A DNA stretch of 63,704 bases from Tsukamurella sp. M9C (GTDB lineage Bacteria > Actinomycetota > Actinomycetes > Mycobacteriales > Mycobacteriaceae): assembly GCF_020169415.1 (NCBI RefSeq), contig NZ_JAIULG010000024.1, forward strand, positions 1 through 63,704. Direction: 5' to 3'. The notes beneath the pieces were generated by a model. The model ran no database searches. It saw only the letters and a program-made list of their open reading frames with translations, and was not told the origin of the DNA. Every line of letters begins with the position of its first letter. Within the stretch, counting starts at the first letter, position 1. Below are positions 26,878-49,830 of the stretch, piece by piece. The translations under genes were made by a program, and so were the position numbers.

Positions 26878-26950
26878 ATGCGTCCGACGCATGGCATTCC
26901 TCACGGATTCGCCTTCTACCTGCGAAGACCGGGCCATGCGTCGCACGCAT
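26878..26950 (+). repeat. Dispersed two-palindrome repeat, copy A
   Basis: Palindromes ATGCGTCCGACGCAT (26878-26892) and ATGCGTCGCACGCAT (26936-26950), starts 58 bp apart. The spacer contains CTTCTACCTGC at the conserved position. The tail beyond the right palindrome can form CTCC/GGAG. It is the only copy without a recognisable inverted partner; sequence to its left resembles the F-G spacer, suggesting a decayed partner. Confidence 0.8.
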
Positions 26951-27001
26951 GGCTCCCGCAGGAGAGACACCGACCCGCCGACCCGCGGGCGGGCGAGCCA
27001 C

Positions 27002-27007
27002 TACGCT
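27002..27007 (+). promoter_or_regulatory. Probable -10 box of a leaderless nfo promoter
   Basis: TACGCT, six bases, ATG at 27014; same hexamer as at dcd. Confidence 0.5.
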
Positions 27008-27013
27008 GGACGC

Positions 27014-27784
27014 ATGCGCATCGGAGCCCATGTCCGCAGTGACACCCACCCCGTCGAGACGGCCGAACAGCTGGGGGTGGACGTGATCCAGATGTTCGTC
27101 TCCGACCCTCAGAGCTGGAAGAAGCCGGAGCCGCACCCGCAGACACAGGCGCTCAAGGATTCGCCGCTGGAGATCGTGGTGCACTCGGCCTACGTCATCA
27201 ACGTCGCGAGCCTGAACAACCGGCTCCGGATGCCGAGCCGCAAGGCCGTCGAGCAGCAGGCCGCGGCGGCCGCCGACCTCGGCGCCTTCGGGCTCGTCGT
27301 GCACGGCGGACACTTGCGCGACGGCGAGGACCTGCTGGCCGGAATCGACAACTGGCGCAAGCTCTTCACCCGCCAGGAGGAGAAGGGCGGCTTCGGCGTG
27401 CCGATCCTCATCGAGAACACCGCGGGCGGCGACGGGGCGATCGCGCGCCAGCTCGAGACCATCGACCGGCTGTGGGACGCGGTCGGCGACCAGGGCGCAG
27501 GCTTCTGCCTCGACACCTGCCACGCCTGGGCGGGCGGCGAGGAGCTGATGGGCATCGTCGAGCGGGTCAAAGCGATCACCGGCCGCATCGACCTCGTGCA
27601 CCTGAACAACTCGCGCGACGAGTTCGACTCCGCCCGCGACCGGCACGCCAACCTGCAGGACGGCACCATCGACCCCGATCTGCTGGCCGACGTCGCCCGC
27701 GCCGCCGGCGCCCCGATCATCCTCGAGACCCCGTCCGAGGGCCTCGCCGACGACGTGGCCTACCTCAAGGAGGCCCTGCTGTGA
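27014..27784 (+). CDS. nfo: Endonuclease IV (AP endonuclease)
   Basis: 256 residues. A TIM-barrel nuclease that cuts DNA 5' of abasic sites in base excision repair using a three-metal centre. Metal ligands are visible in HSAYVINVAS, VVHGGH, LIENTAGG, LDTCHAWAGG, HLNNSRDEFDS with RDRHANLQDG, and ILETPSEG. Length is a little below the E. coli enzyme (285) but usual for actinobacteria. The start is leaderless. Its stop overlaps the GTG of the methyltransferase gene. Confidence 0.94.
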   Translation: MRIGAHVRSDTHPVETAEQLGVDVIQMFVSDPQSWKKPEPHPQTQALKDSPLEIVVHSAYVINVASLNNRLRMPSRKAVEQQAAAAADLGAFGLVVHGGHLRDGEDLLAGIDNWRKLFTRQEEKGGFGVPILIENTAGGDGAIARQLETIDRLWDAVGDQGAGFCLDTCHAWAGGEELMGIVERVKAITGRIDLVHLNNSRDEFDSARDRHANLQDGTIDPDLLADVARAAGAPIILETPSEGLADDVAYLKEALL

Positions 27785-28494
27785 GCACCCCCGACACCAC
27801 CCCGGACGGCATCGACCGCACCGATCAGGAGCGGGAGGAGGGCGGCATCGGGCCGCTCTCCCCCGCCGCGCTGGCACGCGAGGAGAAGCAGGTCCGCGGC
27901 GCGCAGGAGTGGGACGACCGGTACCGCGCCACCGAGCTGGTGTGGGGAACGCCACCCGACCCGTGGATCGTCGAGCAGGTGACCGTGCTGCCGCCCGGCC
28001 GGGCCCTCGACGTGGGCGCCGGCGAGGGGCGGCACGCGCTGTGGCTCGCGACCCGCGCGTGGGACGTGACCGCGGTCGACTTCTCGCGCGTCGGGCTCGA
28101 CAAGGCGGCGACGGTGGCCGCCCGCTCGCCGCGCACCGTCCGCGCCCGGCTGCACTGGACCCCGCTCGACATCACCACCGACGACATCCCCGATCAGCCC
28201 TACGACCTGGCCGTCTGGGCGTACCTGCACCCCGATCCGGAGGACCGGGCGGCGGCGATCGCGAAGGTCGCGCAGTCACTGGCACCGGGCGGGCTGCTGC
28301 TTCTGTTGGCCCACGAGAAGGCGGACTCGCACCCCGGCCTGCCGACCTTCGGCGCCGCCGAGCTGTCGGAGGCGCTCCCCGAGGACATGGTGGTGGAGCA
28401 CGTGGAATGGCGCGAGAGTGATCCGTACCACGGCACAGGTACTGACCTGGCCGTTCGCGCACGTCGTCGGCGCGGGGAGGCGATCGCACCCTAG
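27781..28494 (+). CDS. SAM-dependent class I methyltransferase
   Basis: 237 residues. An Asp/Glu-rich N-terminus of about 45 residues precedes a Rossmann methyltransferase domain with motif [17 protein letters not shown] and the acidic loop VTAVDFS. The [20 protein letters not shown] start is typical of thiopurine/tellurite-resistance-like methyltransferases. Substrate unknown. The GTG start overlaps the nfo stop, so the pair is an operon. Confidence 0.87.
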
Positions 28495-28542
28495 GGGTGC
28501 TTGCACTTGTTCGCACGCGGCGAGCGCGTTATCCTATGGATA

Positions 28543-28571
28543 TTACCGAGCGGTAACTTACCGAGAGGTAA
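28543..28571. promoter_or_regulatory. Tandem operator before fadE5
   Basis: TTACCGAGCGGTAA (28543-28556) and TTACCGAGAGGTAA (28558-28571), two palindromes 15 bp apart, just downstream of a TATCCT/TATGGAT -10-like region. The pattern is a relative of the TTACTC-type sites before the fadA2/fabG4 and TetR genes, suggesting a related TetR/FadR-like regulator. Confidence 0.7.
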
Positions 28572-28609
28572 CAGTCCGACAGCCTGATCTGAGAAGGTGG
28601 AACAGCCCC

Positions 28610-30442
28610 ATGGGCCATTACAAGAGCAACGTCCGCGACATCGAGTTCAACCTCTTCGAGGATCTCGGCGTCGGCGAGGTGCTGGCTTCCGGTGCGTACG
28701 GCGACCTCGACGAGGACACCGCCAAGGAGATGCTGCGCGAGGCGGCCCGTCAGGCCGAGGGCCCCATCGCGGAGTCCTTCGCCGAGGCCGACCGCAACCC
28801 GCCGGTCTTCAACCCGGAGACCCACGAGGTCAAGATCAACGAGGCCTTCAAGAAGTCGCAGGCGATCTTCGCCGACGGCGGCTGGGCCTACCTGGGCCTG
28901 AACGACGAGCTGGGCGGCACCGACGTCCCCCGCAACCTGTACTGGGGCATCGGCGAGCTCTTCCTCGGCGCCAACCCGCCCGTCTTCATGTTCGCCGCGG
29001 GCCCCGGCTTCGCGCAGATCCTCTTCGACGAGGGCACTGACGAGCAGAAGAAGTGGGCGAAGATCGCCGCCGAGCGCAACTGGAACGCCACCATGGTGCT
29101 CACCGAGCCGGACGCCGGCTCGGACGTGGGCGCCGGCCGCACCAAGGCCATCAAGCAGGAGGACGGCTCCTGGCACATCGAGGGCGTGAAGCGCTTCATC
29201 ACGTCCGCGGTGATGGACGGCATGTTCGAGTCGACCTTCCACCTCGTGCTCGCGCGCCCCGAGGGCGGCGCCCCGGGTACCAAGGGCCTGGGCCTGTACT
29301 TCGTGCCGAAGCACCACTTCGACGAGCAGGGCAACCTCGGCGAGGAGAACGGCGTCTACGTCACCGGCGTCGAGCACAAGATGGGCATCAAGACCTCCAC
29401 CACCTGTGAGGTCACCTTCGGCGGCCACGGCAAGCCCGCCAAGGGCTGGCTCGTGGGCGAGGAGATCAAGGGCATCGCGCAGATGTTCAAGGTCATCGAG
29501 CACGCCCGCATGATGGTCGGCACCAAGGCCATCGGCACCCTCTCGACCGGCTACCTCAACGCGCTGGACTACGCCAAGCAGCGCGTCCAGGGCGCCGACC
29601 TGACCCAGATGGCCGACAAGACCGCGCCGCGCGTGACCATCACGCACCACCCGGACGTGCGTCGCTCGCTGCTCACGCAGAAGGCGTACGCCGAGGGCCT
29701 GCGCGCCGTGTACCTGTACACCGCCGCGCACCAGGACGTCCGCACCGCGACCCCCGTCTCGGGTGCCGACGAGGAGATGGCGTTCAAGGTCAACGACCTG
29801 CTGCTCCCGATCGTCAAGGGCGTCGGCTCCGAGCGCGCGTTCACGCTGCTCGGCACCGAGTCGCTGCAGACCTTCGGCGGCTCCGGCTTCCTGCAGGACT
29901 ACCCGATCGAGCAGTACGTCCGCGACTCTAAGATCGACTCGCTGTACGAGGGCACCACCGCCATCCAGGCGCAGGACTTCTTCTTCCGCAAGATCCTCCG
30001 CGACCGCGGCGCCGCGCTCGGCCACATCGCCGGCCAGATCACCGCGTTCATCGAGGCCAACGCCGGTGGCGCCTTCGCCGCCGACGTCGCGCTGCTGAAG
30101 ACCGCCGCCGAGGACGTGCAGGCCATGGCCGCCACGCTCACCGGTTTCGCGCTCGCCTCGCAGCAGGAGCCGTCGGAGCTGTACAAGGTGGGCCTCGGCT
30201 CGGTGCGCTTCCTCATGGCCTTCGGCGACCTCATGATCGGCTGGCGTCTGCTGCACCAGGCCGTCATCGCGCAGGCCGCGATCGACGGTGGCGCCGCCGG
30301 TGCCGACAAGTCCTTCTACGAGGGCAAGGTCGGCGTCGCGAAGTTCTTCGCCGCCAACATGCTGCCGCTGCTGACCTCCGTCAAGGACGTCGTCGCGGCC
30401 GTCGACAACCAGGCGATGGACCTCGACGAGGCCGCGTTCTGA
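28610..30442 (+). CDS. fadE5: Acyl-CoA dehydrogenase, FadE5-type
   Basis: 610 residues, the long acyl-CoA dehydrogenase class. It opens with [20 protein letters not shown], matching M. tuberculosis FadE5 (Rv0244c, 611 residues). FAD-site motifs [16 protein letters not shown] and FITSAVMDG, and the catalytic-base region [16 protein letters not shown] are present; a C-terminal helical extension distinguishes the long form. It catalyses the first oxidation of fatty acyl-CoA in beta-oxidation. It is preceded by two palindromic operators and followed by a strong hairpin. Confidence 0.95.
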
Positions 30443-30467
30443 TCGTCGCTTCGTAGCAACGAGCACC

Positions 30468-30502
30468 CGAGGGCGCTCCGACCACCGGTCGGGGCGCCCT
30501 CG
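30468..30502 (+). terminator. Hairpin terminator after fadE5
   Basis: A 16-bp stem with one T-G wobble (5' arm 30468-30483, 3' arm 30487-30502, loop ACC). There is no T tract, as is common for actinobacterial terminators. Confidence 0.7.
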
Positions 30503-30536
30503 CCCGTTCCCGGGGTCGACCGTGCGGCCACCGCGC

Positions 30537-30565
30537 GCCCGACGGTGGGCGCGGCACCGTCGGGC
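30537..30565. repeat. Hairpin made of two inverted GACGGTGC words
   Basis: GCCCGACGGTG (30537-30547) and CACCGTCGGGC (30555-30565), a perfect 11-bp stem with a 7-nt loop, 55 bp before the pseudo-ATPase start. It contains the over-represented word discussed in the findings. Confidence 0.6.
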
Positions 30566-30619
30566 AGCCACCGTAGGATTGCTACCGACCTGCGCCGACG
30601 ACCCTCCGGAGAGCCCCGC

Positions 30620-31288
30620 ATGGATGACGACCAGCCGAACGACGTACAGCTCACGGCGGTGAACATCGGCGTCGACGGGGAGCACGGTCCCCTGTTCCAG
30701 GGCATCGACCTGCAGTTCGGCCCCGGCCTGCACGCCGTGCAGATGCCCGCCGGCCGCGACCAGGACGCGCTGCTCCTCACCCTGGCCGGCCGGCTCAAGC
30801 CGAGTCACGGCACCGTCGACGCGCTCGGTGCGACCACCCCGGGCGCGATCCGGAAGAAGTGCGCCATCGCCGCCTTCGAGGACATCGACGACCTGGACGA
30901 GTCGGTCACCGTCGAGACGGTGCTCGCGGAGCAGCGGCGCTGGCTGGCGCCCTGGTACTCGATGGTGCCGCTCAGCGCGGGCAGCCTCGAGATGGATCAG
31001 GTCTTCGGCGATCTGGACCGGCCCGGGGCGAAGACCCGCATCGTCGAGCTGACAGACCTGCAGCTGTTCCTGCTGCGGATCACCCTGGCTCTGCTGGGGA
31101 ACCGGCCGATCCTCATCGTCGGCGACCTGGAGCAGGTCCGCGACAACCCGGGACGCGCCGAGGCCGTACAGCGGCTCGGCGCGATCTCCACCCGCTACAC
31201 CGTGATCGTCGGGGTCACCAACCCCCTCGGCGGCACCGCCCCGGAGCACACCCTGCACGACCGCCGCGCCCTGACCCGGAAGGACTGA
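30620..31288 (+). CDS. ABC-ATPase-like protein lacking Walker A
   Basis: 222 residues that follow the ABC ATPase plan: strands LTAVNIGVDGEHGPLFQGIDLQFG, a domain middle, and NRPILIVGDLEQVRD at the Walker B position. The Walker A position reads MPAGRDQDALLLTLAGRL, without the GxxGxGK(S/T) P-loop, and there is no LSGGQ signature, so ATP hydrolysis is unlikely. It is followed 5 bp later by the YhgE/Pip gene and probably regulates or scaffolds it. GGAG precedes the ATG. Confidence 0.75.
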   Translation: MDDDQPNDVQLTAVNIGVDGEHGPLFQGIDLQFGPGLHAVQMPAGRDQDALLLTLAGRLKPSHGTVDALGATTPGAIRKKCAIAAFEDIDDLDESVTVETVLAEQRRWLAPWYSMVPLSAGSLEMDQVFGDLDRPGAKTRIVELTDLQLFLLRITLALLGNRPILIVGDLEQVRDNPGRAEAVQRLGAISTRYTVIVGVTNPLGGTAPEHTLHDRRALTRKD

Positions 31289-31293
31289 TCCCG

Positions 31294-33318: not shown

Positions 33319-33324
33319 GCCGCC

Positions 33325-34419
33325 ATCGACACCGCCCCGCGCTCCGGCCACGTCCCCGCCCTCACCGGGTTGCGGGCGCTGGCGGCGTTCGGGGTGTGCG
33401 TCACGCACGCCGCGTTCTGGGGCGGCGACTTCACCCCGGACGCGCTCGGCGCCGCCTACGCGCGGCTCGAGACCGCGGTGCCCGTGTTCTTCGCACTGTC
33501 GGGGTTCCTGTTGGTGCGGCCGTGGATTCGCGCGCGGGCCGGAGGCGCGTTGCCGGACGTGCGGCGGTACCTCGTCGCGCGGGCCTGGCGGATCCTGCCG
33601 GCGTACTGGGTGGTGGTCACCGTCGTCTACGCGATCTACCTGTGGCGGCCCGACGGTTCGCCGCACGGGCACGGGTGGTTCGGATACCTGCGGCACCTGA
33701 CCTTCACGCAGATCTACAGCGTGGGGTACGTGCACACGGGGCTGACGCAGATGTGGTCGATGTGCGTGGAAGTCGCCTTCTACCTGGCACTTCCACTGCT
33801 GGGGCTGTGGCTGGTGAGCGCCCGTCGGGCGTGGGCGGTGCCGGCGGCGATGGTCGCGCTCTCGGTCGGTTGGCTGCTGGTGGCCACGGCGACGGAGGTC
33901 TTCGGGAAGACGGCACGCTCGTGGCCGCCGGCGTTCGCGGCCGCCTTCGCCGCGGGGATCGTGGTGGCGCTGCTCGTGGACCGGGTGCGGCTCCCGCGGC
34001 TGCCGCTGCTGCTGGCGGTCGCGGCGGCCTACGCCGTGCTGCTGACACCGCTCGCCGGGCCGATCGACCTGCGGCTGCCCACGCCGGCGCAGGGGGTCAC
34101 GAAGTTCCTGCTCGAGGCGCTGATCGGCGGGCTTCTGGTGGCGGCGTTCGCGACCGGGCCCTCGCGCGTGCTGGGTTCGCGGCCGATGGTCTGGCTCGGC
34201 TCCATCAGCTACGAGTTCTTCCTCATCCACGTGATCGTCATGGAGTTCGTGGTGCTCGACCTCTTCGGCTGGTCGCTGTTCACCGGATCGACGTGGCCGA
34301 TCGTCGCCGTGACCACCGCGATCACCATCGTGCTGTCGTGGGGGCTGCGCGTGGGTGTGGAGCGGTTCCGCGCGGCGGTGAGGCGGCAGCGGGCAGCGGC
34401 GGTCGCGGGCGGTCGCTGA
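33325..34419 (+). CDS. Acyltransferase 3 (OafA/YrhL) family membrane protein
   Basis: About 364 residues, ten helices. The family N-terminus VPALTGLRALAAFGVCVTH, with the catalytic-type histidine, then FFALSGFLLVRPW, RAWRILPAYW and TQMWSMCVEVAFYL are clear. These enzymes O-acylate sugars or lipids at the membrane. The start is problematic: the conserved N-terminus begins upstream of the only standard start (TTG at 33370), and no ATG, GTG or TTG exists between it and the in-frame TGA of the YhgE gene. An ATC at 33325 or read-through of that TGA are options. I list the ATC version so that the domain is complete. Confidence 0.8.
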   Translation: MDTAPRSGHVPALTGLRALAAFGVCVTHAAFWGGDFTPDALGAAYARLETAVPVFFALSGFLLVRPWIRARAGGALPDVRRYLVARAWRILPAYWVVVTVVYAIYLWRPDGSPHGHGWFGYLRHLTFTQIYSVGYVHTGLTQMWSMCVEVAFYLALPLLGLWLVSARRAWAVPAAMVALSVGWLLVATATEVFGKTARSWPPAFAAAFAAGIVVALLVDRVRLPRLPLLLAVAAAYAVLLTPLAGPIDLRLPTPAQGVTKFLLEALIGGLLVAAFATGPSRVLGSRPMVWLGSISYEFFLIHVIVMEFVVLDLFGWSLFTGSTWPIVAVTTAITIVLSWGLRVGVERFRAAVRRQRAAAVAGGR

Positions 34420-34499
34420 TTCCCGGAGCGGCGGCACCGCGGGCACAGCTCGCGCCGTAGGCGATCCTCGCACCGGGTCCGTGTTGTTCCATGGAACCG

Positions 34500-34574
34500 A
34501 TGCGTCCCGCGCATACCCTCGAAACCTCCAGGTCAGAGACGCTTTTCCACGATCAGGTGATGCGCCTGACGCAT
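34500..34574 (-). repeat. Dispersed two-palindrome repeat, copy B
   Basis: Palindromes ATGCGTCCCGCGCAT (34500-34514) and ATGCGCCTGACGCAT (34560-34574). In reverse complement the spacer has TCTCTGACCTGG at the conserved place. The outward (left) tail contains TTCC-AT-GGAA, a perfect small hairpin. Partner of copy C. Confidence 0.85.
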
Positions 34575-34634
34575 AGCCCTGCCAGGACGTACACGGCGAC
34601 GGGGCGGCGGACCGTGGAGCTGGAAGACGGGGGT

Positions 34635-34709
34635 ATGCGCCAGACGCATGGCCCGGCCCGAAGAAAATAGCGTCTACCTGCGGGTTTCGGGGGTATGCGT
34701 GGGACGCAT
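34635..34709 (+). repeat. Dispersed two-palindrome repeat, copy C
   Basis: Palindromes ATGCGCCAGACGCAT (34635-34649) and ATGCGTGGGACGCAT (34695-34709), each preceded by GGGGT. The spacer contains GTCTACCTGCGGG. The right tail continues to AACAACACA. Inverted partner of copy B, 60 bp away. Confidence 0.85.
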
Positions 34710-34750
34710 GACTGCTCCGAACAACACACCGCCCCGCGCGGGCGACGAGC

Positions 34751-35251
34751 TCAGCGGAGGAGCGTGGCGGCGGCGTCGTCGAGGATCGGGCGGCGCTGGG
34801 CGGACGGGGCGTCCCAGAGCTTGCCGGTCAGGCCCTCCAGGGCCACGACCTTGGGCTCGAGCTCGCCGAGGGCCTTCGTGCGCTCCTCGCCCGACAGCTG
34901 GGCGGCGGCGATGATGCGGTCGTCGAGGGCGAAGACGGCGTCGTCGAGGGCGGCGAGATCGGACTCGGGGCCGTCGATCGCGGAATCGGCGGGCGGCGGG
35001 ACGGCGGGCGCGAAGGCGCCGCGGTGCACGTCGGCGATGGCGTAGCGGGTGCGCTGATGCAGCAGCGCCTCGGTGGAGGTGGCGTTCGCCCACTCGGCGG
35101 GCGCGCGGCCGGGCCGCCCGGGGATGAGGTCGCCGGAGTTGGCGAAGTCCTGGATCCGTTTGTTGGAGTCGCGGAGGAACCAGATCACGCCGACCAGCAG
35201 GAGAACCGCCACCACCGCGATCCCGATGACGATCACGATGCCGAAACTCAT
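34751..35251 (-). CDS. Single-pass membrane protein of unknown function
   Basis: 166 residues. One N-terminal membrane helix (about 3-26) is followed by a cytoplasmic or extracytoplasmic domain predicted to be mostly helical, with acidic stretches (DGPESDLAALDDAVFALDD). No family recognised. Its ATG overlaps the stop of the CoA-binding protein gene upstream, so the two are co-translated. Confidence 0.7.
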   Translation of the reverse strand: MSFGIVIVIGIAVVAVLLLVGVIWFLRDSNKRIQDFANSGDLIPGRPGRAPAEWANATSTEALLHQRTRYAIADVHRGAFAPAVPPPADSAIDGPESDLAALDDAVFALDDRIIAAAQLSGEERTKALGELEPKVVALEGLTGKLWDAPSAQRRPILDDAAATLLR

Positions 35252-35670: not shown

Positions 35671-35676
35671 GACACC

Positions 35677-35682
35677 AGCTTA
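35677..35682 (-). promoter_or_regulatory. Probable -10 box of a leaderless promoter
   Basis: Minus strand TAAGCT, six bases, ATG at 35670. Confidence 0.5.
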
Positions 35683-35700
35683 GGCGGCCGGGGCCGGCTG

Positions 35701-37030: not shown

Positions 37031-37057
37031 GGGTTTCTCCCAGTGATCGAGGGTTGC

Positions 37058-38496: not shown

Positions 38497-39387
38497 ATGG
38501 CGAAGAACGTGACCGTGCTGCAGGCGCCGCCGTCGAGCCTGTCCGTGCTCACGCGCGGGCTGCGCGGCGTCCTGCCGGTGGTCGGTAAGCAGGGGAAACT
38601 CACCCCGGAGACCGCGCTGCCGGACCGGACCGTCGAGCTCACCGTCGACGTGGATCCCGCGCGAGTCGGCGAGTACTGCGAGGCCGTCGGGCTGAAGAAC
38701 ACCGGCGAGGTGCCCGTGATGTACCTCTACGTGCTCTCCTTCCCGCTGATCATGGACCTGTTCCTCTCGGACGACTTCCCCGCCGCGGCGGTGGGGTCGG
38801 TGCACGTGGAGAACACGATCACGCGCCGCCGCCGGGTGGAGCCGGGCGAGAAGCTGACGCTGCGCACGTCCGTCGGCAACCTGCGCGAGCACCGCAAGGG
38901 CATGCTCATCGACTTCACGACGGAGTTCACGGACGCGTCCGGCGCGTCGGTGGCGTCCGAGGTGTCGACGATGCTGATCCAGCAGCGGACCTCGCTCTCC
39001 GGTGAGCCGTCCGGTCCCGCGCCGAAGGAGGGCCGCCCCGGCGCTCCCGACGCGCTGCTCTCGGCCGACGGCGGACTGATCCGCCGCTACGCCGGCGTGA
39101 GCGGCGACCGGAACCCGATTCACATGTCGCCCATCGGCGGCAAGGCGTTCGGTTTCCCGTCGTCGATCGCGCACGGCGCGTGGACGGCGGCGGCGATGCT
39201 GCGCGTCGTCGAGGGCCACATCCCCGACGCGGTCGTGCACCACGTGCGCTTCGGCAAGCCGGTCATCCTGCCCGCGAAGATCGGGCTGTACGTCTCGCGC
39301 GACGAGGCGACCGGCGGCACCGAGATCGTCGCGAAGGACCTGAAGAAGGGCTTCCCGCACGTGACGGCCACCGTCACCCCGCTGTAA
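38497..39387 (+). CDS. htdX: 3-hydroxyacyl dehydratase (MaoC-like), HtdX-type
   Basis: 296 residues as a double hot-dog protein. The MaoC hydratase motif is seen in the second half: YAGVSGDRNPIHMS with the catalytic Asp/His, then FPSSIAHGAWTAAAML. It should dehydrate or hydrate 3-hydroxyacyl thioesters, working with FabG4 and FadA2 in a fatty acid cycle. Matches M. tuberculosis Rv0241c in length and place. The ATG is 2 bp after the fabG4 stop. Confidence 0.94.
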   Translation: MAKNVTVLQAPPSSLSVLTRGLRGVLPVVGKQGKLTPETALPDRTVELTVDVDPARVGEYCEAVGLKNTGEVPVMYLYVLSFPLIMDLFLSDDFPAAAVGSVHVENTITRRRRVEPGEKLTLRTSVGNLREHRKGMLIDFTTEFTDASGASVASEVSTMLIQQRTSLSGEPSGPAPKEGRPGAPDALLSADGGLIRRYAGVSGDRNPIHMSPIGGKAFGFPSSIAHGAWTAAAMLRVVEGHIPDAVVHHVRFGKPVILPAKIGLYVSRDEATGGTEIVAKDLKKGFPHVTATVTPL

Positions 39388-39518
39388 GTCCAGTTCTCCG
39401 ACGGTGCCCGCCCGGCTTCGGCCGCGGCGGGCATCGTCGTCTCCGGGCTCGGGCGGTGGCTCTGGCTGCGGCTCGCGCACGCGACGGCAGAAGGGCGGTG
39501 TAGTCGTTCGGAGAAGCT

Positions 39519-39593
39519 ATGCGCACCACGCATACCCCCTGTATGTGCAGGTCAGGCACATATTCGATCGCTCGAGCGATGCGCCACGCGCAT
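39519..39593 (-). repeat. Dispersed two-palindrome repeat, copy D
   Basis: Palindromes ATGCGCACCACGCAT (39519-39533) and ATGCGCCACGCGCAT (39579-39593). The reverse complement of the spacer has GCCTGACCTGCA and ends in GGGGGT. The left (outward) tail reads, in reverse complement, GCTTCTCCGAACGACTACACC. Copy D and inverted copy E flank the gene at 39617-40183. Confidence 0.85.
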
Positions 39594-39604
39594 TGCGCTT
39601 GCCG

Positions 39605-39616: not shown

Positions 39617-40183
39617 ATGTCGACAGATCGCGCAGTCGAGCGGCGCAATTGGACCCACTTCGGGTACGGACTGGCGCTGTTCGTACTGCTCGACGTCACG
39701 GCATTACTCTGGGCCGGAACCTTCCCCGGTGACCCCGGCCTGGGACTGCTGTCGTTCCTCGGCGGTGCGTTTCTCGTCGTGGCTTGGCTGGTGTATCTGG
39801 CGGCGTGGGCGCGGACGATCCGCCGCTTCGTGTGGCAGTTGCTGATCATTCCGCTCATCGGGGCGACCGCCATCGCACTGTTGTGGACGAACGCCGTACC
39901 CGACACCCGGTGGAACTACGACGAACCCCGGCTGCGAGCCGCCGCCGAAAGAATGCTCGCCGACCCGCGGGCGGACGTCGACGACTACGCAGCACGGTCG
40001 ATCGGCACGCAGGACGTGTATTCGGCGTCCAAGAGGGAAGGTGTCGTGCGATTCCACATCGCAGGTCCGTCGATCAGCACCACCTCCCTGGCATACCACC
40101 CCGACGGCGCGATTCCGACCGATGCGACTCGAACCAGGGTCACGCACCTCTCCGGCCGGTGGTGGCTGGAACTGTCGGACTAG
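39617..40183 (+). CDS. Membrane protein between two inverted repeat copies
   Basis: 188 residues with three hydrophobic helices (about residues 16-36, 44-65, 73-94) and a C-terminal soluble domain of about 90 residues rich in Arg/Asp (RLRAAAERMLADPRADVDDY). No family recognised. Its base use looks less GC-rich than its neighbours, and it lies exactly between inverted copies D and E, which suggests cargo acquired with the repeat pair. It has no counterpart at this place in the M. tuberculosis order as I remember it. Confidence 0.7.
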   Translation: MSTDRAVERRNWTHFGYGLALFVLLDVTALLWAGTFPGDPGLGLLSFLGGAFLVVAWLVYLAAWARTIRRFVWQLLIIPLIGATAIALLWTNAVPDTRWNYDEPRLRAAAERMLADPRADVDDYAARSIGTQDVYSASKREGVVRFHIAGPSISTTSLAYHPDGAIPTDATRTRVTHLSGRWWLELSD

Positions 40184-40193
40184 CGCATAGGCG

Positions 40194-40267
40194 ATGCGCA
40201 GCACGCATCGCCCCTATCCGAAGATCGGCTTCTGACCTGGCACTACCGGGGTATGCGTCGGACGCAT
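40194..40267 (+). repeat. Dispersed two-palindrome repeat, copy E
   Basis: Palindromes ATGCGCAGCACGCAT (40194-40208) and ATGCGTCGGACGCAT (40253-40267, preceded by GGGGT). The spacer has TTCTGACCTGGC. The right tail GCTTCGCGGAGC forms a GCT/AGC hairpin and ends ACTACACC, the same end as copy D. Confidence 0.85.
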
Positions 40268-40335
40268 CGCTTCGCGGAGCGACTACACCCGCCGTGCCCG
40301 GGCACCCGCCCACCGGGCCGGGCACCGTCGGACGA

Positions 40336-40932
40336 TTACTCCGGGCGCTCGCCGCGGATGCCGCCCCAGAGGAACGAGGTCATGATCTCGACGGCGCGGT
40401 CGAGTTCGACCTTGCCGGTGGCCAGACGGTCCGCGATCGCCTCACCGGAGCCGACGAGGGCGACGGCGTAGAGCTCGAAGTCGGTGTCCTCCGGCGCGTA
40501 CTTGGCGGCCTCGCGGAGCAGCACCGCGGTCATCTCGACCACCCGCTCGCGGTTCACCTCGGTGAGCGCGGCGAACGCCGCCTGGCCGGTCGCCTCGCGG
40601 TAGATCACGCGCCAGGCGTCGCGGTTCTCGTCGACGTACTTCAGGAAGCCGGCGATCACCGAACGCAGGCGCTGCAGGGGCGGCAGCGTGGGGCTGGCGT
40701 CGAACTCGATGCTGCGCATGAACCGGCCGGCCTCGCGGGTGACGCACGCGGCGAAGAGCTCGTCCTTCGACCCGTAGTACAGGTACAGCATCGGCTTGCT
40801 GATCTGCGCCTCGCGGGCCACCGCGTCCATCGACGTCTCGTAGAAGCCGTTGCGCGAGAACACCTTGATGGCGGCGTCCAGCATCTGCTGCTCGCGCACC
40901 GCGCGCGGCAAACGCTTCGTCCCACCGGCCAT
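40336..40932 (-). CDS. TetR-family regulator, Rv0238-like
   Basis: 198 residues. N-terminal helix-turn-helix with FYETSMDAVAREAQISKPMLYLYYGSKDEL at about residues 24-53, then a helical ligand domain. In M. tuberculosis the corresponding Rv0238 lies in the same block with fadE5-fadA2-fabG4-htdX. Palindromes of TTACTC type lie directly upstream of its own AAGGAGG ribosome-binding site and also before fadA2/fabG4, so autoregulation and control of the fatty acid genes by an acyl-CoA ligand is likely. Confidence 0.9.
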   Translation of the reverse strand: MAGGTKRLPRAVREQQMLDAAIKVFSRNGFYETSMDAVAREAQISKPMLYLYYGSKDELFAACVTREAGRFMRSIEFDASPTLPPLQRLRSVIAGFLKYVDENRDAWRVIYREATGQAAFAALTEVNRERVVEMTAVLLREAAKYAPEDTDFELYAVALVGSGEAIADRLATGKVELDRAVEIMTSFLWGGIRGERPE

Positions 40933-40943
40933 CGGCGTCCTCC

Positions 40944-40988: not shown

Positions 40989-41011
40989 GTTCCGGTGAAA
41001 TCCGTTCGGAA

Positions 41012-42175: not shown

Positions 42176-42202
42176 CGGGGCCAGTCTGTCAGATCGGGTC
42201 GG

Positions 42203-43126: not shown

Positions 43127-43269
43127 GCGCGCAGTCTGGCAGGCGGGGGAAAACCAGCCCGGGGGCGCGTCCGCGACGCGCCGGACTCGCCCGGACTTGC
43201 ATCTTGCAACCGAGGCGTTTCGGCGTAGCCTGGAGGCATCAGGTAACCGTGAAGATCGAGGTGATCCGC

Positions 43270-43770
43270 ATGAGTGTCCCCGTCAAGGTTCTGATCGCGT
43301 ACGACGGCTCCGAGTCCTCCCAGCGCGCCGTCAAGTACGCCAGCAAGGTGCTCGCGCAGGGCCGCGACGCCGAGGCGATCGTCGTCACCGCGTGGGAGTC
43401 CACCATCCACCAGGCCGCCCGGCTGTCCGCCATGTCGGGCGTCGCGGGGGCCGGAGCCGCCGAGACCGCGCTCACCCGCGAGAGCGACGTGGTGCACGCC
43501 GAGGCGAAGAAGACGAACCAGCAGGGCGTCGACCTGGCGGCCGCGGCCGGCTTCACGGCGCACGGCGAGCTCATCGAGGTCTCCACCACCGTGTGGACCG
43601 CGCTCATCGCCGCGTCGGACACCTTCGACGTCGACGTCATCGTCTCCGGCAGTCGCGGCGTCTCGGGCATCCGGTCGCTGTGGCATTCGTCCGTTTCCGA
43701 GCACGTGCTGCGCGGATGCAAGCGGCCGGTCATGATCGTGCCGTCGGGCTGCGCGGAGCTGGACCTGTAG
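43270..43770 (+). CDS. Universal stress protein (UspA family)
   Basis: 166 residues in one Usp domain: VLIAYDGSESSQRAVKYAS at the start and VSGSRGVSGIRSLWHSSVSEH with RPVMIVPSG at the end. The ATP-binding Gly pattern is nearly complete but the usual GS is SS. Such proteins sense adenine nucleotides in stress. GAGGTG precedes the ATG at 43270. Confidence 0.88.
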   Translation: MSVPVKVLIAYDGSESSQRAVKYASKVLAQGRDAEAIVVTAWESTIHQAARLSAMSGVAGAGAAETALTRESDVVHAEAKKTNQQGVDLAAAAGFTAHGELIEVSTTVWTALIAASDTFDVDVIVSGSRGVSGIRSLWHSSVSEHVLRGCKRPVMIVPSGCAELDL

Positions 43771-43773
43771 ACT
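43768..43773 (+). promoter_or_regulatory. Probable -10 box of the Rv0236A-like gene
   Basis: TAGACT, seven bases, ATG at 43781. The TAG is also the stop codon of the universal stress protein. Confidence 0.45.
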
Positions 43774-43780
43774 TTCCCGC

Positions 43781-43981
43781 ATGGACCGCACCTCGATCAT
43801 CGCCAGCGCCACCGCAGCGCTCGCCGGCATCGTCGTCGCCGTGGCCCTCGCACTGGTGAGCGGCGCGGCCGTCGCGCAGACGTCGCCGACCACGGATGTC
43901 AACACCGTGTCGAAGGACAAGGGCTTCCTGCAGGGCTCGTCGAACTACGGCGAGCGCGACGACTCGGGTGCCAACAAGTAG
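43781..43981 (+). CDS. Small secreted or membrane-anchored protein, Rv0236A-like
   Basis: 66 residues. A single hydrophobic segment (about 7-31, ending AAVAQTS) may be a signal peptide or anchor; the mature part is short and polar (VNTVSKDKGFLQGSSNYGE). A protein of this size precedes aftD in mycobacteria (Rv0236A, DUF2613). Its end overlaps the aftD start by 14 bp, so the two are translationally coupled and may work together. Confidence 0.85.
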   Translation: MDRTSIIASATAALAGIVVAVALALVSGAAVAQTSPTTDVNTVSKDKGFLQGSSNYGERDDSGANK

Positions 43982-46900
43982 CCCCCACTTCTCCGACGAA
44001 CCCCTGACCCGCCGCGCAGGCGCGTGGGCGTTCGTCGCCCTGCTCGCGCTGAGCTTCCTCAGCGCGCCCGGGAAGGTCGTCGCCGACACCAAGCTCGACC
44101 TCACGGCCAACCCCATCGGCTTCCTCGCCCGCGCGGCCAACGTCTGGTCCAGCCAGTCCCCGCTCGGCCAGGTGCAGAACCAGGCCTACGGCTACTTCTT
44201 CCCGCACGGCGCGTTCTTCGCGCTGGGCCAGTTCCTGCACGTCCCGCCGTGGATCACGCAGCGCCTGTGGTGGGCTCTGCTGCTGTTCGCGGGCTTCTGG
44301 GGCATCGTCCGGCTCGCCGAGGCGCTGGGCACCGGCTCGCGCGGCAGCCGCGTCGTGGCCGCGGCCGCGTTCGTGCTGGCCCCGCAGGTGCTCACGACGC
44401 TGGGCGCGATCAGCTCCGAAACCGCGCCGGTGATGCTCGCGCCGTGGGTGCTGCTCCCCCTGGTCCTGCTGTTGCAGGGCGCGGACGTGCCGCTGCGGAA
44501 CCTGGCCGCCCGCTCGGCGGTTGCGGTCGCGCTGATGGGCGCGGTGAACGCCGTGGCCACGGGCTTCGCGTGCGCGGTGGCCGCGCTGTGGTGGCTGCTG
44601 CACGTGCGCTTCGGCGCCGGGACCGGCCGGTTCTGGCGGTTCAGCGCCTGGTGGGCGGTGTGCGTGGCGCTGGCGACCACCTGGTGGATCGTGCCGCTGC
44701 TCATCATGGGCCGCGTCAGCCCGCCGTTCCTCGAGTTCATCGAGTCCTCCCGCGCGACCACGCAATGGGCGTCGGTGCCGGAGGTGCTGCGCGGCACCAC
44801 GTCGTGGAGCCCGTTCATCTCCGACGAGCGCGGCGCCGGCGCCATGCTCACCACCTCCCCCGCCGCGGTCGTCGTCACCGGCCTGGTCGCGTGCGCCGGC
44901 ATCGCCGGGCTCACCATGCGGCGCATGCCCAAGCGCGGGGTCTGGGCGACGGTGCTGCTCGTGGGGCTGGCGGGGATCGGCGCGGGCTACGCCAGCGGCC
45001 TGGGTTCCCCGGTGGCCGAGCCGGTGCGGGTCTTCCTCGACAGCGTCGGCGCGCCCCTGCGCAACGTCTACAAGCTCGAGCCCTTCCTGCGGTTGCCGCT
45101 GGTCCTGGGCATGGCGCACCTGCTGGCCCGGGCGCCGCTGCCCGGCACCGTCGGCCTGGCGAAGGTGCGGCGGGCGCTGGCGCACCCCGAGCAGGACCGC
45201 CTCGCCGCGGGCGCCCTCGCCGTGGTCGTGGTGCTCGCGCTAGCGGGCGGCATGGCGTGGACGGGCAAGCTCGCGCCCCGCGGGCCGTACGACAAGATCC
45301 CCGACTACTGGTCGCAGGCCGCGGACTGGCTGTCCGCGCACGCCGCCGGGACCGCGCCCGGCCAGGCCCGCGCCGAACGCGCCCTCGTCGTGCCGGGCGC
45401 GCCCTTCGGCGCGCAGCTGTGGGGCCTCACGCGCGACGAGCCGATCCAGCCCCTGGCCGAGACGCCGTGGGCCGTGCGCGACGCGATCCCCCTCAACCCG
45501 CCCGGCGCGATCCGCGCCCTCGACTCGGTGCAGCGGCTGTTCAGCGCGGGCACACCGTCGGCGGGGCTGGCCGCGACGCTGCGCCGCCAGGGCATCTCCT
45601 ACCTCGTGCTGCGGGCCGACCTCGACCCCGGCACGTCGCGCTCCGCCCGGCCCGCGCTGGCCCGCGCCGCGATCGAGGGCTCGCCCGGGATCAGCGAGGT
45701 CGCCCGGTTCGGCGCGGACATCGCGCCGCCGACCGTCGAGAAGGTGGTCGTCGACTCCGGGTTGCGGCCACCGCTGCCGGCCATCACGATCTACCGCGTC
45801 GACGGCGGCGCCCCGACCGGCCCGTACGTGGCCGACCTGGCGACGATGCCGCGCGTCGCGGGCGGGCCGGAGGCGCTGCTGGGGCTGCAGGCCGACGCCG
45901 CCGCGTCGGGCCGGCGCGAGCTGGGCGCGGCGCTGCTCGCCTCGGACGCGAAGGACGCGGGCCTGCCCGACGGTCCGCTGACCGTCACCGACACGCCCAA
46001 GCGGCGCGAGACCGACTACGGCCGCGTCGACGACCACAGCTCCGCGATCCGCACCGCCTCCGATCCCCGCCGAACGCTGAACCGGCTGCCCGACTACCCG
46101 GCGGCGGGGCTGGTCGACGGGACGTGGCAGGGCGCGACGGTATCCGCGTCCAGCTCGGCCGCCGACGCCACGCAGCTCGGCACCGTGCTCCCCGGCGCGG
46201 GGACCGCCGCCGCGGTGGACGGCGACAAGAACACCGCGTGGGTCTCCTCCGGGCTGGACCATGCGATCAACCAGTGGCTGCAGTTCACGCTGCCCGAGCC
46301 GCGGGCGGACCTGTCGGTGACGGTCACCGTCGGGCGCGCACTGGGCCCCGCGGTCACGCGCCTGCTCATCACCACCGAGGCGGGCACCGTCTACTCCGAT
46401 CCCGTCACGGCGGGCACGCCTATCACGCTGGTCGCGCCGTCGGAGCCGACGCGCTGGGTGCGGATCACCGCCGCCGAGACCGCGGACCGCACCTGGGGCA
46501 ACCAGTTCGCCATCACCGAGGCCGAGCTCACGGACACCCGGTCGAAGCAGTCGATCCCCGCGCGGCACGACGTCGCGCTGCCCGCGTCCGGGCCGGCGCA
46601 GCGCTGGGTCTTCGGTCAGGACACGATGGGCCGCTCCGGCTGCGTCGTCACGCCCGGCGAGAACGGCGCGCCGGGACCGGTCCAGTGCGCCGACATCGCC
46701 ATCGGGCCGGAGGAGCCGGGGCCCCTGCGGCGCACCGTCGACGGTCCCGGGGCAGCTGCGGTGACGCCGTCGCTGACGGTCCGCGCCCGCCCGGGCCAGG
46801 CGCTGTCGGCGCTGCTCGGGGCGGCGGGCGCGCCGTCGGCGTTCGCGGAGTCGGCGGTCGGCGACGGCCGGGCGAGCTCCGCCGCGGCCGTCGACGGGGA

Positions 46901-48248
46901 TCCGAACACGGTCTGGTCGGCGCCGCAGTCGGTCACCGAGCCCACGTCGCCGAAGCCGGTGCTGCGGCTGCGGCTGCCGTCGCCGCAGGTCGTCGGCGGC
47001 CTGACGCTGCGGCTGCCCGGCGGCGAGGCGCCCGCGCGGCCGACGCGGATCGGCGTCGACCTGGGGACGGGGCGGCAGGTACGCGAGCTGCCGTCGGGCG
47101 ATTCCGTCACCGTGAAGGTCGAACCGGCCGTGACGGATTCGATCTCGATCTCGCTGCTCGACTGGGACGAGCGGATCAACATCAACGACTTCGGCTTCCC
47201 GGAGAAGATGGCGCCCGGGCTCGCCGAGGTGCGGGCCGTCGGCCCCGACGGGGCGCCCGTCCCCGGATCCGATCCCGCGCCCGCGGACCGTCCGGTCGTG
47301 GTGCCGTGCGAGACCGGCCCGACGGTGCGGATCGGCGACCGGCTGCTGCGCTTCCGGATCGAGGCGGGAGCGCGGGAGCTGCGCGACGGTGCGCCCGTCC
47401 GCGCCGTGGCCTGCGACCCCGCGCCGGTGCCGCTGCCGGCCGGGAAGGCGCAGGTCGTGGCGTCGCCGGGGCTCGCCTTCAGCGTGGACTCGCTGTCGTT
47501 GGACACGCCGGCGGCCGCCGAGGCATCGCCCCGGGACGAGAGCGTGAAGGTGCAGAGCTGGACCCCAGACCGCCGGGTGGTGACGGTCAGCCGCGCCGAC
47601 GCCGATCAGGTGCTCGTCGTCCCCGAGAGCCGCAACTCCGGCTGGGCCGCGACGGGGCCGGACGGCACGCCGCTGCGCGCCGTGACGGTGAACGGCTGGC
47701 AGCAGGGTTGGGTGGTGCCCGCCGGGACCGACGGTGCCGTGACCCTGCGGTTCGCGCTCAACGCGCCGTACCGGATCGGGCTCTTCGGCGGGCTCGCCCT
47801 GCTGGTGATCCTCGCGGCGCTGGCCCTGGTCCCGGGCTCGCGGCCGCGTGCCGACGGCGGGCCGGTGCGCGCCTGGCAGCCGGGGGTCGCGGCGGGCCTG
47901 GGGATCGGCGCGGTCGCCTTCGTGCTCAGCGGCTGGCCCGGGCTCGCGCTGTGGGCGGCCGCCGGTCTCGCGACGTGGGTGGTCTCCGGGCTGCACGTCT
48001 CGGCGGACCGTCGGGCGGCGATCCGGGTGTTCGGCGCCTCCGGCTTCGTGCTGGCGGGGATGCTGCTGCTCGCGACCGGCCCGTGGCACGCCGAGGCCGG
48101 TTACGTGGGCCACGGCCCCTGGCCGCAGGGCCTGGCCCTGGTCGGCGTGCTGCTGATGGCCTGGTCGACGGTGCCGCCCACCCGATTCCTCCGCCGGCGC
48201 GGCGGCGCGTCCGGCGAGGACGAGCGCGAGGCCGGCGGCGCGAAGTAG
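43968..48248 (+). CDS. aftD: Arabinofuranosyltransferase AftD
   Basis: 1426 residues, close to M. tuberculosis AftD (Rv0236c, 1400). The N-terminal half is a GT-C glycosyltransferase with about eleven helices (from ACAWAFVALLALSFL-like helix 1 to about residue 450); the central part holds beta-sandwich carbohydrate-binding modules (for example the discoidin-like segment AVDGDKNTAWVSSGLDHAINQ and AVDGDPNTVWSAPQS), and four or so helices close the C-terminus. It adds alpha-1,3-linked arabinofuranose branches to arabinogalactan and lipoarabinomannan from decaprenyl-phosphoarabinose outside the membrane. The GTG at 43968 is the first start in frame downstream of the coupled gene's body. Confidence 0.95.
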   Translation: MPTSSPHFSDEPLTRRAGAWAFVALLALSFLSAPGKVVADTKLDLTANPIGFLARAANVWSSQSPLGQVQNQAYGYFFPHGAFFALGQFLHVPPWITQRLWWALLLFAGFWGIVRLAEALGTGSRGSRVVAAAAFVLAPQVLTTLGAISSETAPVMLAPWVLLPLVLLLQGADVPLRNLAARSAVAVALMGAVNAVATGFACAVAALWWLLHVRFGAGTGRFWRFSAWWAVCVALATTWWIVPLLIMGRVSPPFLEFIESSRATTQWASVPEVLRGTTSWSPFISDERGAGAMLTTSPAAVVVTGLVACAGIAGLTMRRMPKRGVWATVLLVGLAGIGAGYASGLGSPVAEPVRVFLDSVGAPLRNVYKLEPFLRLPLVLGMAHLLARAPLPGTVGLAKVRRALAHPEQDRLAAGALAVVVVLALAGGMAWTGKLAPRGPYDKIPDYWSQAADWLSAHAAGTAPGQARAERALVVPGAPFGAQLWGLTRDEPIQPLAETPWAVRDAIPLNPPGAIRALDSVQRLFSAGTPSAGLAATLRRQGISYLVLRADLDPGTSRSARPALARAAIEGSPGISEVARFGADIAPPTVEKVVVDSGLRPPLPAITIYRVDGGAPTGPYVADLATMPRVAGGPEALLGLQADAAASGRRELGAALLASDAKDAGLPDGPLTVTDTPKRRETDYGRVDDHSSAIRTASDPRRTLNRLPDYPAAGLVDGTWQGATVSASSSAADATQLGTVLPGAGTAAAVDGDKNTAWVSSGLDHAINQWLQFTLPEPRADLSVTVTVGRALGPAVTRLLITTEAGTVYSDPVTAGTPITLVAPSEPTRWVRITAAETADRTWGNQFAITEAELTDTRSKQSIPARHDVALPASGPAQRWVFGQDTMGRSGCVVTPGENGAPGPVQCADIAIGPEEPGPLRRTVDGPGAAAVTPSLTVRARPGQALSALLGAAGAPSAFAESAVGDGRASSAAAVDGDPNTVWSAPQSVTEPTSPKPVLRLRLPSPQVVGGLTLRLPGGEAPARPTRIGVDLGTGRQVRELPSGDSVTVKVEPAVTDSISISLLDWDERININDFGFPEKMAPGLAEVRAVGPDGAPVPGSDPAPADRPVVVPCETGPTVRIGDRLLRFRIEAGARELRDGAPVRAVACDPAPVPLPAGKAQVVASPGLAFSVDSLSLDTPAAAEASPRDESVKVQSWTPDRRVVTVSRADADQVLVVPESRNSGWAATGPDGTPLRAVTVNGWQQGWVVPAGTDGAVTLRFALNAPYRIGLFGGLALLVILAALALVPGSRPRADGGPVRAWQPGVAAGLGIGAVAFVLSGWPGLALWAAAGLATWVVSGLHVSADRRAAIRVFGASGFVLAGMLLLATGPWHAEAGYVGHGPWPQGLALVGVLLMAWSTVPPTRFLRRRGGASGEDEREAGGAK

Positions 48249-48282
48249 GCCTGCGGGCTGGGTGTTGTCTCGCAGAGAAGCG

Positions 48283-48357
48283 ATGCGCGCCACGCATACC
48301 CCATGAACCTGCAGGTCAGTGGCTCATTTTGCTGTTCGAGCGATGCGTCCGGCGCAT
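48283..48357 (-). repeat. Dispersed two-palindrome repeat, copy F
   Basis: Palindromes ATGCGCGCCACGCAT (48283-48297) and ATGCGTCCGGCGCAT (48343-48357). The reverse-complement spacer has CACTGACCTGCAGG and ends GGGGT. The left tail, in reverse complement, is GCTTCTCTGCGAGACAACACC with a TCTC/GAGA hairpin. Confidence 0.85.
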
Positions 48358-48504
48358 ACCCCCGCAGCTCCCCACGATTCCGCAGTGCTCGTTCGACGTC
48401 CCCACGCGGCGTTCCTTCCCCCACGCCGCACCGAATCCCCCAGGAAACGCCGTGGACCGGTGCGCAAGGCACACGCTCGGACGTCCCCGGGCAGACTCCG
48501 GGTG

Positions 48505-48579
48505 ATGCGCCGCGCGCGTCACCCGCTGCCGAAATGCGCCTCTGACCTACAACGACGAAGGGGCATGCGTGGCACGCAT
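48505..48579 (+). repeat. Dispersed two-palindrome repeat, copy G
   Basis: A decayed left palindrome (48505-48519, ending CGCGT) and an intact right one ATGCGTGGCACGCAT (48565-48579). The spacer has CCTCTGACCTAC. The right tail GCTTCCGTGCAGAACTACCCC contains the TAG stop of the leftward acyltransferase gene (48595-48597). Confidence 0.8.
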
Positions 48580-48594
48580 CGCTTCCGTGCAGAA

Positions 48595-49830
48595 CTACCC
48601 CACCGGCGCGACGGGCTCCGCGGCCGGCGGCTCGATCCGCGCCTGCGCGGCCTCGGCGGGCGAGGAGGCGGCGGACCGTCGGGCCTCGCGGCGAGCCAGC
48701 CAGCGACGGGCCGGCTCCTCCACCCAGGCGTAGCTCAGGGCCGCGACGGCGACCGAGAAGACCAGCGTCAGCAGGGTCACCTTCAGGAAGGCGCCGTTGA
48801 AGGGCACGATCGCGAACAGCGGGAAGATCGCGGTGAGCACCACGAGGTGCCAGATGAAGATGCCGTACGACCAGCGGCCGAGCGCCAGCATGAACCCCGA
48901 GCCGAGCCACCGCGAGGGCTCCGAGGCGGGCGCCAACACGAGCGGCGCCAGCAGCAGGAAGCCCAGCACCCCGCCGAGTCCCATGCGCAGGGCGAACTGC
49001 CAGGCCTCGGGGGTGTCGAGCGTGACGGGCCCGCCCAGCGGCGTGCAGATCACGGCGAACACCACGAGCGCCGCCGGCCAGCACACGCGACGGCGCGCCA
49101 GGCGCCGCACCGGAGCGAACCAGGCGACCGGAGCGCTCACGATCTCGGCGAGGACGATGCCCGCGACGAACCACGGCACGTACGAGGGCAGCCAGTTGTG
49201 GTGGTTCACCCCCGGCGGCAGGGGCAGCGCCGCGCCGACCCACGCCCAGCTCAGCGACACCGCCGCCACGGCGAGTAGCGCCGGCACCCGCCACCGCGCG
49301 GCCGAACCGCGCAGCCGCACGAGTGCCAGCGCGGCCAACGGCAGCAGCAGGTAGAAGAGCATCTCCACGGAGAGCGACCACATCTGGGTCAGCCCGTCGG
49401 TGAGGGAGTAGGGCACGAAGACCTGGGTCAGCGAGAGGTTGGCGAGCCAGGTGGAGCCCGACGGGGCCGTCGACCGCGGGAGCAGGGCCAGCGCGACCAC
49501 GGCGACCAGGAGATACGCGGGCATGATCCGCACGAATCGCGACCGGTAGTACCGCCCCGTCGGCGGGCCGTCGGAGGACGTCCAGGCGGCCCGGGCGTGC
49601 GCGCGCCACAGCAGGAACCCGGACAGCCCGAAGAACAGGGCGACCGCCATGTCGAACCGGCCCCACACCCGGCCCATCACCGAATGACCCACCTGACCGG
49701 TCTGGAAGGCGGTGTGGGTGAGCATCACGGCGATCGCCGCGCACGCGCGCATGCCCTCGAGTGCGGGCACGAAACCGGCCGCACCCGCAGGCTTTGCAGA
49801 TGCGAATTCGCTGGTCCCGACGGTGCTCAT
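48595..49830 (-). CDS. Acyltransferase 3 family membrane protein, Rv0228-like
   Basis: 411 residues with ten or eleven helices. The N-terminus GFVPALEGMRACAAIAVMLTH has the conserved histidine; ALFFGLSGFLLWRAH, SRFVRIMPAYLL and TQMWSLSVEMLFYLLLP follow. It probably transfers an acyl group such as succinyl or acetyl to an envelope sugar. It lies beside aftD, and DUF3068 follows, as Rv0228 lies beside Rv0227c. The stop codon is inside the tail of repeat copy G. Confidence 0.9.
   Translation of the reverse strand: MSTVGTSEFASAKPAGAAGFVPALEGMRACAAIAVMLTHTAFQTGQVGHSVMGRVWGRFDMAVALFFGLSGFLLWRAHARAAWTSSDGPPTGRYYRSRFVRIMPAYLLVAVVALALLPRSTAPSGSTWLANLSLTQVFVPYSLTDGLTQMWSLSVEMLFYLLLPLAALALVRLRGSAARWRVPALLAVAAVSLSWAWVGAALPLPPGVNHHNWLPSYVPWFVAGIVLAEIVSAPVAWFAPVRRLARRRVCWPAALVVFAVICTPLGGPVTLDTPEAWQFALRMGLGGVLGFLLLAPLVLAPASEPSRWLGSGFMLALGRWSYGIFIWHLVVLTAIFPLFAIVPFNGAFLKVTLLTLVFSVAVAALSYAWVEEPARRWLARREARRSAASSPAEAAQARIEPPAAEPVAPVG

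Follow-up and report, generated by a model that had tools for sequence, protein, structure and literature searches.

The 63,704-nucleotide stretch of DNA from Tsukamurella sp. M9C analysed here (the window) is the whole of contig C27 of a 4.73-Mb genome (genome label G000). Its relatives place it in Tsukamurella: ten of the first 11 aftD loci listed come from this genus and one from a metagenome bin labelled Acidobacteriaceae. Seven copies, A to G, of an element built of two 15-bp palindromes ATGCG-N5-CGCAT and an oriented core between them lie in this window. All were found where a first-pass annotation, made from the letters alone, had placed them, with palindrome spacings of 58, 60, 60, 60, 59, 60 and 60 bp. 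Thirteen of the 14 palindromes are exact, the exception being the left one of G (48505) with one mismatch; for exact ATGCG-N5-CGCAT, 100 shuffles gave an expectation of 0.10 and never more than 2, against the 13 present in the window. That all copies are intergenic was confirmed by independent gene calls (7/7). The elements and the genes adjoining them are the following.

26869..26979, minus strand: element A; palindromes 26878-26892 and 26936-26950; in a divergent region, 63 bp upstream of the start of an nfo-like gene (27014)
27014..27784, plus strand: nfo-like gene of the AP_endonuc_2 family, adjoining A
33370..34419, plus strand: Acyltransferase_3 gene, upstream of B
34470..34584, plus strand: element B; palindromes 34500-34514 and 34560-34574; 80 bp past the stop of the acyltransferase gene
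34626..34739, minus strand: element C; palindromes 34635-34649 and 34695-34709; 41 bp past the stop of the minus-strand gene 34751-35251
34751..35251, minus strand: gene without Pfam match, with C at its 3' end
38497..39387, plus strand: MaoC-domain gene, with D at its 3' end
39490..39601, plus strand: element D; palindromes 39519-39533 and 39579-39593; 131 bp past the MaoC gene
39617..40183, plus strand: small gene, function not assigned, between the facing D and E
40185..40296, minus strand: element E; palindromes 40194-40208 and 40253-40267; 68 bp past the minus-strand TetR gene, facing D
40336..40899, minus strand: TetR-family gene, with E at its 3' end
43968..48248, plus strand: aftD (arabinofuranosyltransferase), with F at its 3' end
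48256..48365, plus strand: element F; palindromes 48283-48297 and 48343-48357; 34 bp past aftD
48498..48609, minus strand: element G; palindromes 48505-48519 (one mismatch) and 48565-48579; 15 bp past the stop of the minus-strand acyltransferase gene, facing F
48595..49770, minus strand: Acyltransferase_3 gene, with G at its 3' end

The single architecture that had been annotated for all copies held for the two palindromes and the core and failed for orientation, as A, C, E and G are opposite to B, D and F. A TCTGACCTGC-like core near the right end and a GGGG-type run before the right palindrome are present in A, C, E and G only; B, D and F are reversed, with CAGGTCAG on the plus strand and ACCC after the left palindrome. 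The orientation of C was taken from the profile described below (77.4 versus 29.4 bits; the margin in the core is only 1). Elements B and C face each other across a gap of 60 bp.

A family of oriented elements at gene ends

The density in the window had suggested hundreds of copies per genome; instead, the 4.73 Mb hold 17 exact pairs and 38 places matched by a profile. In addition, 45 single ATGCGYNNNRCGCAT were counted, and a reversed control gave none. The profile was sequence-only and had 17 rows representing 16 elements (in its alignment, A1, element C98 is present in both orientations and C61 in its later-found reverse orientation). Its 88 rows at E up to 10 in this genome were reduced to 38 places of at least 20 bits, second-strand rows and those below 20 bits being dropped. 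Searches of the whole genome and of relatives thus found copies far beyond the window, so the family is not confined to it. An exact pair was present in 11 of 15 Tsukamurella genomes and in none of 186 genomes of other genera in the family sample; profile matches at E 0.001 occurred in 13 of 16 Tsukamurella genomes, G030, G168 and G198 being element-free. When 79 aftD loci were searched for like-arm palindrome pairs 50-70 bp apart, a loop of 5 gave 10 matches, nine of them the Tsukamurella element; loops of 3, 4, 6 and 7 gave 10 matches in total, with no arm found more than twice per loop length. Rfam matched only tRNA in the window, and no Rfam family matched the copies. Four pattern matches in viral contigs, when read, bore no sequence relation to the element, three being one and the same AT-richer repeat, and no related site or protein was found in the viral collections searched. 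A limited literature search returned no description of such an element. A family of about 100-bp elements specific to Tsukamurella within the genomes searched is well supported by these results.

The anatomy of the element was derived from 75 oriented copies among 87 in 12 genomes, the 12 pairs without clear orientation being dropped; for column statistics, five near-duplicates were first removed (n = 70). From 5' to 3' the element consists of a G-rich stretch, GT-N-GTCG(T)TC, AAGC directly before the first palindrome, the palindrome ATGCGYNNNRCGCAT itself, (A/G)(C/G)C(C/T), the core GCAG(G/T)TCAGAG (beginning 12 or 13 bp past the first palindrome in 68/70 copies), a stretch rich in T, G(C) ahead of the second palindrome and CC two bases past it. 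Conservation stops at about 25 bp on the upstream side and 4 bp on the downstream side. The spacer between the palindromes measures 41-46 bp (43-45 in 65/70), and the palindrome arms hardly vary, with sixth and tenth bases varying freely.

Further, the copies were placed relative to genes. A sense gene lies upstream of 63 of the 75 oriented copies, its stop at a median distance of 62 bp. Forty-nine copies are in convergent intervals, 14 in tandem intervals in sense, three in tandem intervals in antisense and nine in divergent intervals. The convergent share (49/75) exceeds that of 105 intervals of at least 100 bp at 11 aftD-region loci (22/105; p 2e-9), a background that itself holds elements and comes from related loci. 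As a convergent interval offers a sense gene upstream whichever way the element points, orientation rests on the tandem counts (14 sense versus 3 antisense, p 0.013) and on facing pairs. Twenty-one of 24 neighbour pairs less than 5 kb apart face each other ('+-'), 14 without a gene between them and seven with one or two; one pair is '++' (one member ambiguous), and two are '-+', about 4.8 kb apart and spanning five genes. The list of neighbour pairs retains copies with unclear orientation (C included) and one hand-entered profile match. In 15 of the 22 convergent copies without a partner, the gap to the upstream gene was shorter than that to the downstream one (p 0.03). The position and orientation of the elements relative to genes are well supported. 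The genes served (30 upstream genes scanned) are diverse and include those for aldehyde dehydrogenase, arginase, YgbB, trehalose phosphatase, TetR and UbiA. At one divergent site of the M9C genome (contig C78; L158 3362-3568), a Ku gene has a full element and a weaker second one upstream of it, across from a large divergent gene; together with nfo, this puts two genes for DNA repair at the few divergent sites.

Many intervals hold elements in distant species, often at a similar distance from the same gene. In 66 distant orthologous pairs (23 groups), identity was 83% in the core, 89% at the G/C positions flanking the palindromes, 39% in the other spacer bases and 33% in the downstream flank; an earlier hand-picked set of 58 pairs, from which several groups had been left out, gave 85, 90, 39 and 32%, and non-orthologous pairs gave 79, 87, 30 and 29% for the same classes. 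The core had not been used as a search key, unlike the palindromes, whose 98% identity is biased for that reason. Since the core was kept and the other spacer bases diverged at orthologous sites, selection acts in place, and this conservation is well supported by the comparisons.

Element clusters are concentrated in the origin-proximal half of the chromosome (15/15 in G070, 12/14 in G137 and 12/13 in G201), and after orienting these three genomes by dnaA 31 of 42 clusters were on one arm. In G100 all seven places share a contig with dnaA and lie no more than 0.76 Mb from it. MatP-bound matS sites and the arrays bound by SlmA or Noc likewise number in the tens, are palindromic and keep to part of a chromosome, a confinement that the elements share apart from one site in G137 that is 1.84 Mb from dnaA. 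Chromosome-organising sites of this kind, placed where no gene is disturbed, would account for the crowding near the origin and on one arm and for the functionally unrelated genes served. Yet matS, SlmA and Noc sites are single palindromes without orientation to genes, no cognate organiser protein was identified (no search was aimed at one), the element is oriented with transcription, the G137 site lies far out, and the clustering may be inherited because many sites are shared by descent. We regard such a function as distinctly unlikely.

Pairing, coupling of half-sites and dispersal

A structured RNA had been among the natures proposed for the elements. Column-pair statistics revealed no RNA-type covariation in the core, palindrome positions 6 and 10 showed no pairing beyond chance, and the spacer folded no better than shuffles (mean z -0.29), so that the core and the spacer gave no support to this proposal. 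The outer flanking bases of the four half-sites, however, agreed in 62% of cases within an element compared to 41% between elements of one genome. This held for each pairing of half-sites (44, 48, 43, 39, 41 and 45 of 70, with 24-29 expected); no such agreement within an element was seen in the inner N3 of the half-sites. Whereas RNA hairpins couple partners only, all four half-sites are coupled here, which we read as the mark of one protein assembly touching all four. With coupled half-sites, rigid spacing and a linked LysR-type gene (see below), paired sites for a putative binding protein are the best supported of the natures offered.

Transcription ending in high-GC actinobacteria is poorly understood, and U-tract terminators are scarce there. 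A structured RNA or intrinsic terminator in the 3' untranslated region would fit the position and orientation of the elements at gene ends, the conserved T-rich stretch and the folding of the whole element (z about -2.4). Other observations on this side count against the protein-bound reading preferred below: (i) pairing above chance was seen around the first palindrome at -2/+16 (p 0.008) and -4/+18 (p 0.0015), and around the second at -4/+18 (p 0.016); (ii) RNAalifold proposed 16 pairs in two hairpins, five of them changed on both sides; (iii) T-tract hairpins occur at 27/98 convergent and 9/21 tandem element-bearing gene ends, compared to 8/67 and 31/125 without an element (lone palindrome 3/21 and 1/3), an excess that would also fit an RNA terminator. 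The flanking-base pairs are explained by a longer DNA dyad as well as by an RNA stem. Moreover, the folding signal stems from the palindromes and is equally strong on the antisense strand (-2.6), compensatory change is absent from the core and from positions 6/10, and the arm sequence is nearly invariant even where pairing would permit change. On balance an RNA or terminator is highly unlikely. Core hairpins seen by eye in single copies showed no excess over the family. An antisense promoter in the core was considered and rejected, as no -10 box at proper spacing was seen by eye.

With respect to dispersal, the proposal of a repetitive extragenic palindromic (REP) sequence moved by a Y1 or REP-associated tyrosine transposase (RAYT) was not sustained: no match to such a transposase was found in any of 16 Tsukamurella genomes at E 0.001, whereas the control gave matches in 5 of 14. 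The same absence of a Y1 TnpA from the 16 genomes sets the element apart from palindrome-associated transposable elements (PATE) derived from IS200/IS605. At the foot of the palindrome, REP sequences and REPINs carry a conserved tag, GTAG or CGTC. No fixed tag was found at this position in the elements; the GT-N-GTCG motif lies 13-19 bp away, and its middle base is A in 31%, G in 35% and T in 31%.

One facing pair was copied between loci. A unit on contig C22, set among genes unrelated to those around B and C, matches the B+C unit at 79% identity in an alignment of 257 columns (which ends before the end motif of C); recurrence at a second locus implies that facing pairs can be copied. The annotated view of a true family rather than recent copies thus stands as far as the profile and the conservation in place are concerned, and has to be qualified for this facing pair. 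Facing pairs might be units resembling miniature inverted-repeat transposable elements (MITEs), with or without a cargo gene such as that for the short LysR-type protein, which some enzyme moved into convergent intervals and of which single elements are remnants. Besides the second B+C unit, the differing contents of facing pairs across species and the LysR-type gene flanked by facing elements at two loci favour this explanation. It is at odds with the kept core amid spacer bases near saturation at orthologous sites, which is unlike dead insertions, with the lack of Y1 matches, with the many sites common to several species and with the empty site compared by eye, at which no target-site duplication was seen. 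We consider it unlikely. In T. ocularis (L065/L209), D and E are fused via a shared palindrome, giving three palindromes in a row, and the small intervening gene is absent, as if a deletion had ended in the palindromes. An 18-bp perfect palindrome, GAAGCCAGATCTGGCTTC, is located at the place of D/E in the MaoC-TetR interval of sp. PLM1 (L073).

A short LysR-type protein linked to the elements

The largest cluster of proteins encoded next to elements is a short LysR-type helix-turn-helix protein (176-187 amino acids in most gene calls, 185 in the M9C genome). Among 5.8 billion proteins searched, with 7999 candidates scored, 19 matched, including the own protein; the seven with a named source are all from Tsukamurella. 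The family is present in 12 of 16 Tsukamurella genomes and in none of the three element-free ones (Fisher p 0.007). G030 is the sister of G100 in the aftD tree (rows G000 and G201, with misread frames, disregarded), and G100 has both element and gene; the tree most simply implies their joint loss in G030. Twelve of 19 loci of the gene have an element within about 140 bp, among them all eight main orthologs, six of which were already in the neighbour cluster. Elements flank the gene on both sides at L223, L224, L228, L230 and, decayed, L232, and it lies between facing elements at two different loci. Intact palindromes numbered 52/74 in genomes with the main LysR gene compared to 12/26 in those without, a weak difference because copies were partly chosen for exact palindromes. 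The predicted structure (mean predicted local distance difference test score 86.9, predicted template modelling score 0.52) comprises a winged helix-turn-helix, a linker helix and one regulatory subdomain, and matches LysR-type structures such as CbnR and OxyR. Given this linkage, the short LysR-type protein is probably the binder of the elements. At L223-L230, the gene is found in either orientation by the same neighbours (UbiA-type; mostly PALP-type) across species.

Our preferred reading, held tentatively and at a little under even confidence, is that of a Tsukamurella-specific DNA element of two 15-bp palindromes and an oriented core, mostly past gene stops, which the short LysR-type protein may bind as an oriented roadblock. 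The protein would bind both palindromes, presumably with a dimer at each and a bent core in between, and the complex would obstruct transcription past gene stops in one orientation. The roadblock function is a best guess by analogy with the stoperators of mycobacteriophages: a complex that halts transcription at gene ends, or insulates it there, is possible and somewhat doubtful. Less probably, truncated LysR-type protein and bipartite sites may form a new repeat system, co-inherited since early in the genus, that makes oriented protein stops at origin-proximal gene ends; if so, such a system would amount to a stoperator network on the chromosome and to a counterpart of REPIN-RAYT systems without a transposase.

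The copies upstream of nfo (in three species) and of ku (in the M9C genome) could be operators of a classical LysR regulon. Divergent regions hold only 9 of 75 copies and the served genes have no obvious common pathway, which makes a regulon very improbable.

Several points also weigh against a LysR-bound roadblock at gene ends: (i) nine of the 75 copies fall in divergent intervals, and in three species the nfo copy keeps a distance of 62-63 bp to the start codon, which resembles promoter control; (ii) one facing pair was copied to another locus, which does not suit a pure gene-end role; (iii) counts over copies are non-independent, orthologous sites being related, and co-occurrence of element and gene stems from few independent events; (iv) the LysR family was found through being an element neighbour, so that the fair test of linkage consists of G125 and G053 (2/2) and 11 further loci, four of which had a paired-scan match, two lone palindromes and five none; (v) G188 has profile matches and no LysR match at 1e-12; (vi) the protein has no second regulatory subdomain, and the palindromes are farther apart than the recognition-binding site (RBS) and activation-binding site (ABS) of LysR-type operators.

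The element shares features with several known systems. ATGCGYNNNRCGCAT is a T-N11-A dyad, which is the LysR-type box (PMC12609908); in the classical model described there, such dyads are paired as RBS and ABS under one tetramer. In contrast to these operators, the elements lie mostly past gene ends and not at promoters, and the candidate protein is short of one regulatory subdomain. The stoperators of cluster A mycobacteriophages are likewise many dispersed intergenic repressor sites oriented with transcription, but are 13-bp asymmetric single sites for a phage repressor in phage genomes, whereas the Tsukamurella element is chromosomal, bipartite, 100 bp long and palindromic (PMC9283540). The facing pairs and the tandem ratio of 14 to 3 agree with a stoperator-like orientation; the nine divergent copies do not fit it. 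Like REPINs, the elements are palindromic, dispersed and intergenic, and the repeats are associated with a gene that is passed on vertically (PMC8049555). They differ in that no Y1 match was found in 16 genomes, that the own genome has about 40 places, that each unit encloses an oriented core between palindromes spaced 60 bp, and that the linked gene encodes a LysR-type DNA binder. The family bears on the ending of transcription in high-GC actinobacteria and on the question of how dispersed repeat populations persist in bacterial genomes. A single genome provides up to about 40 natural copies, a candidate protein has been named, and species with natural gene loss can serve as controls.

A minor observation concerns NZ_LR134460.1 (L300), listed as 'plasmid 18' of T. 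tyrosinosolvens: its genes include pknB and one for an alpha-(1->6)-mannopyranosyltransferase, and it resembles a chromosomal fragment.

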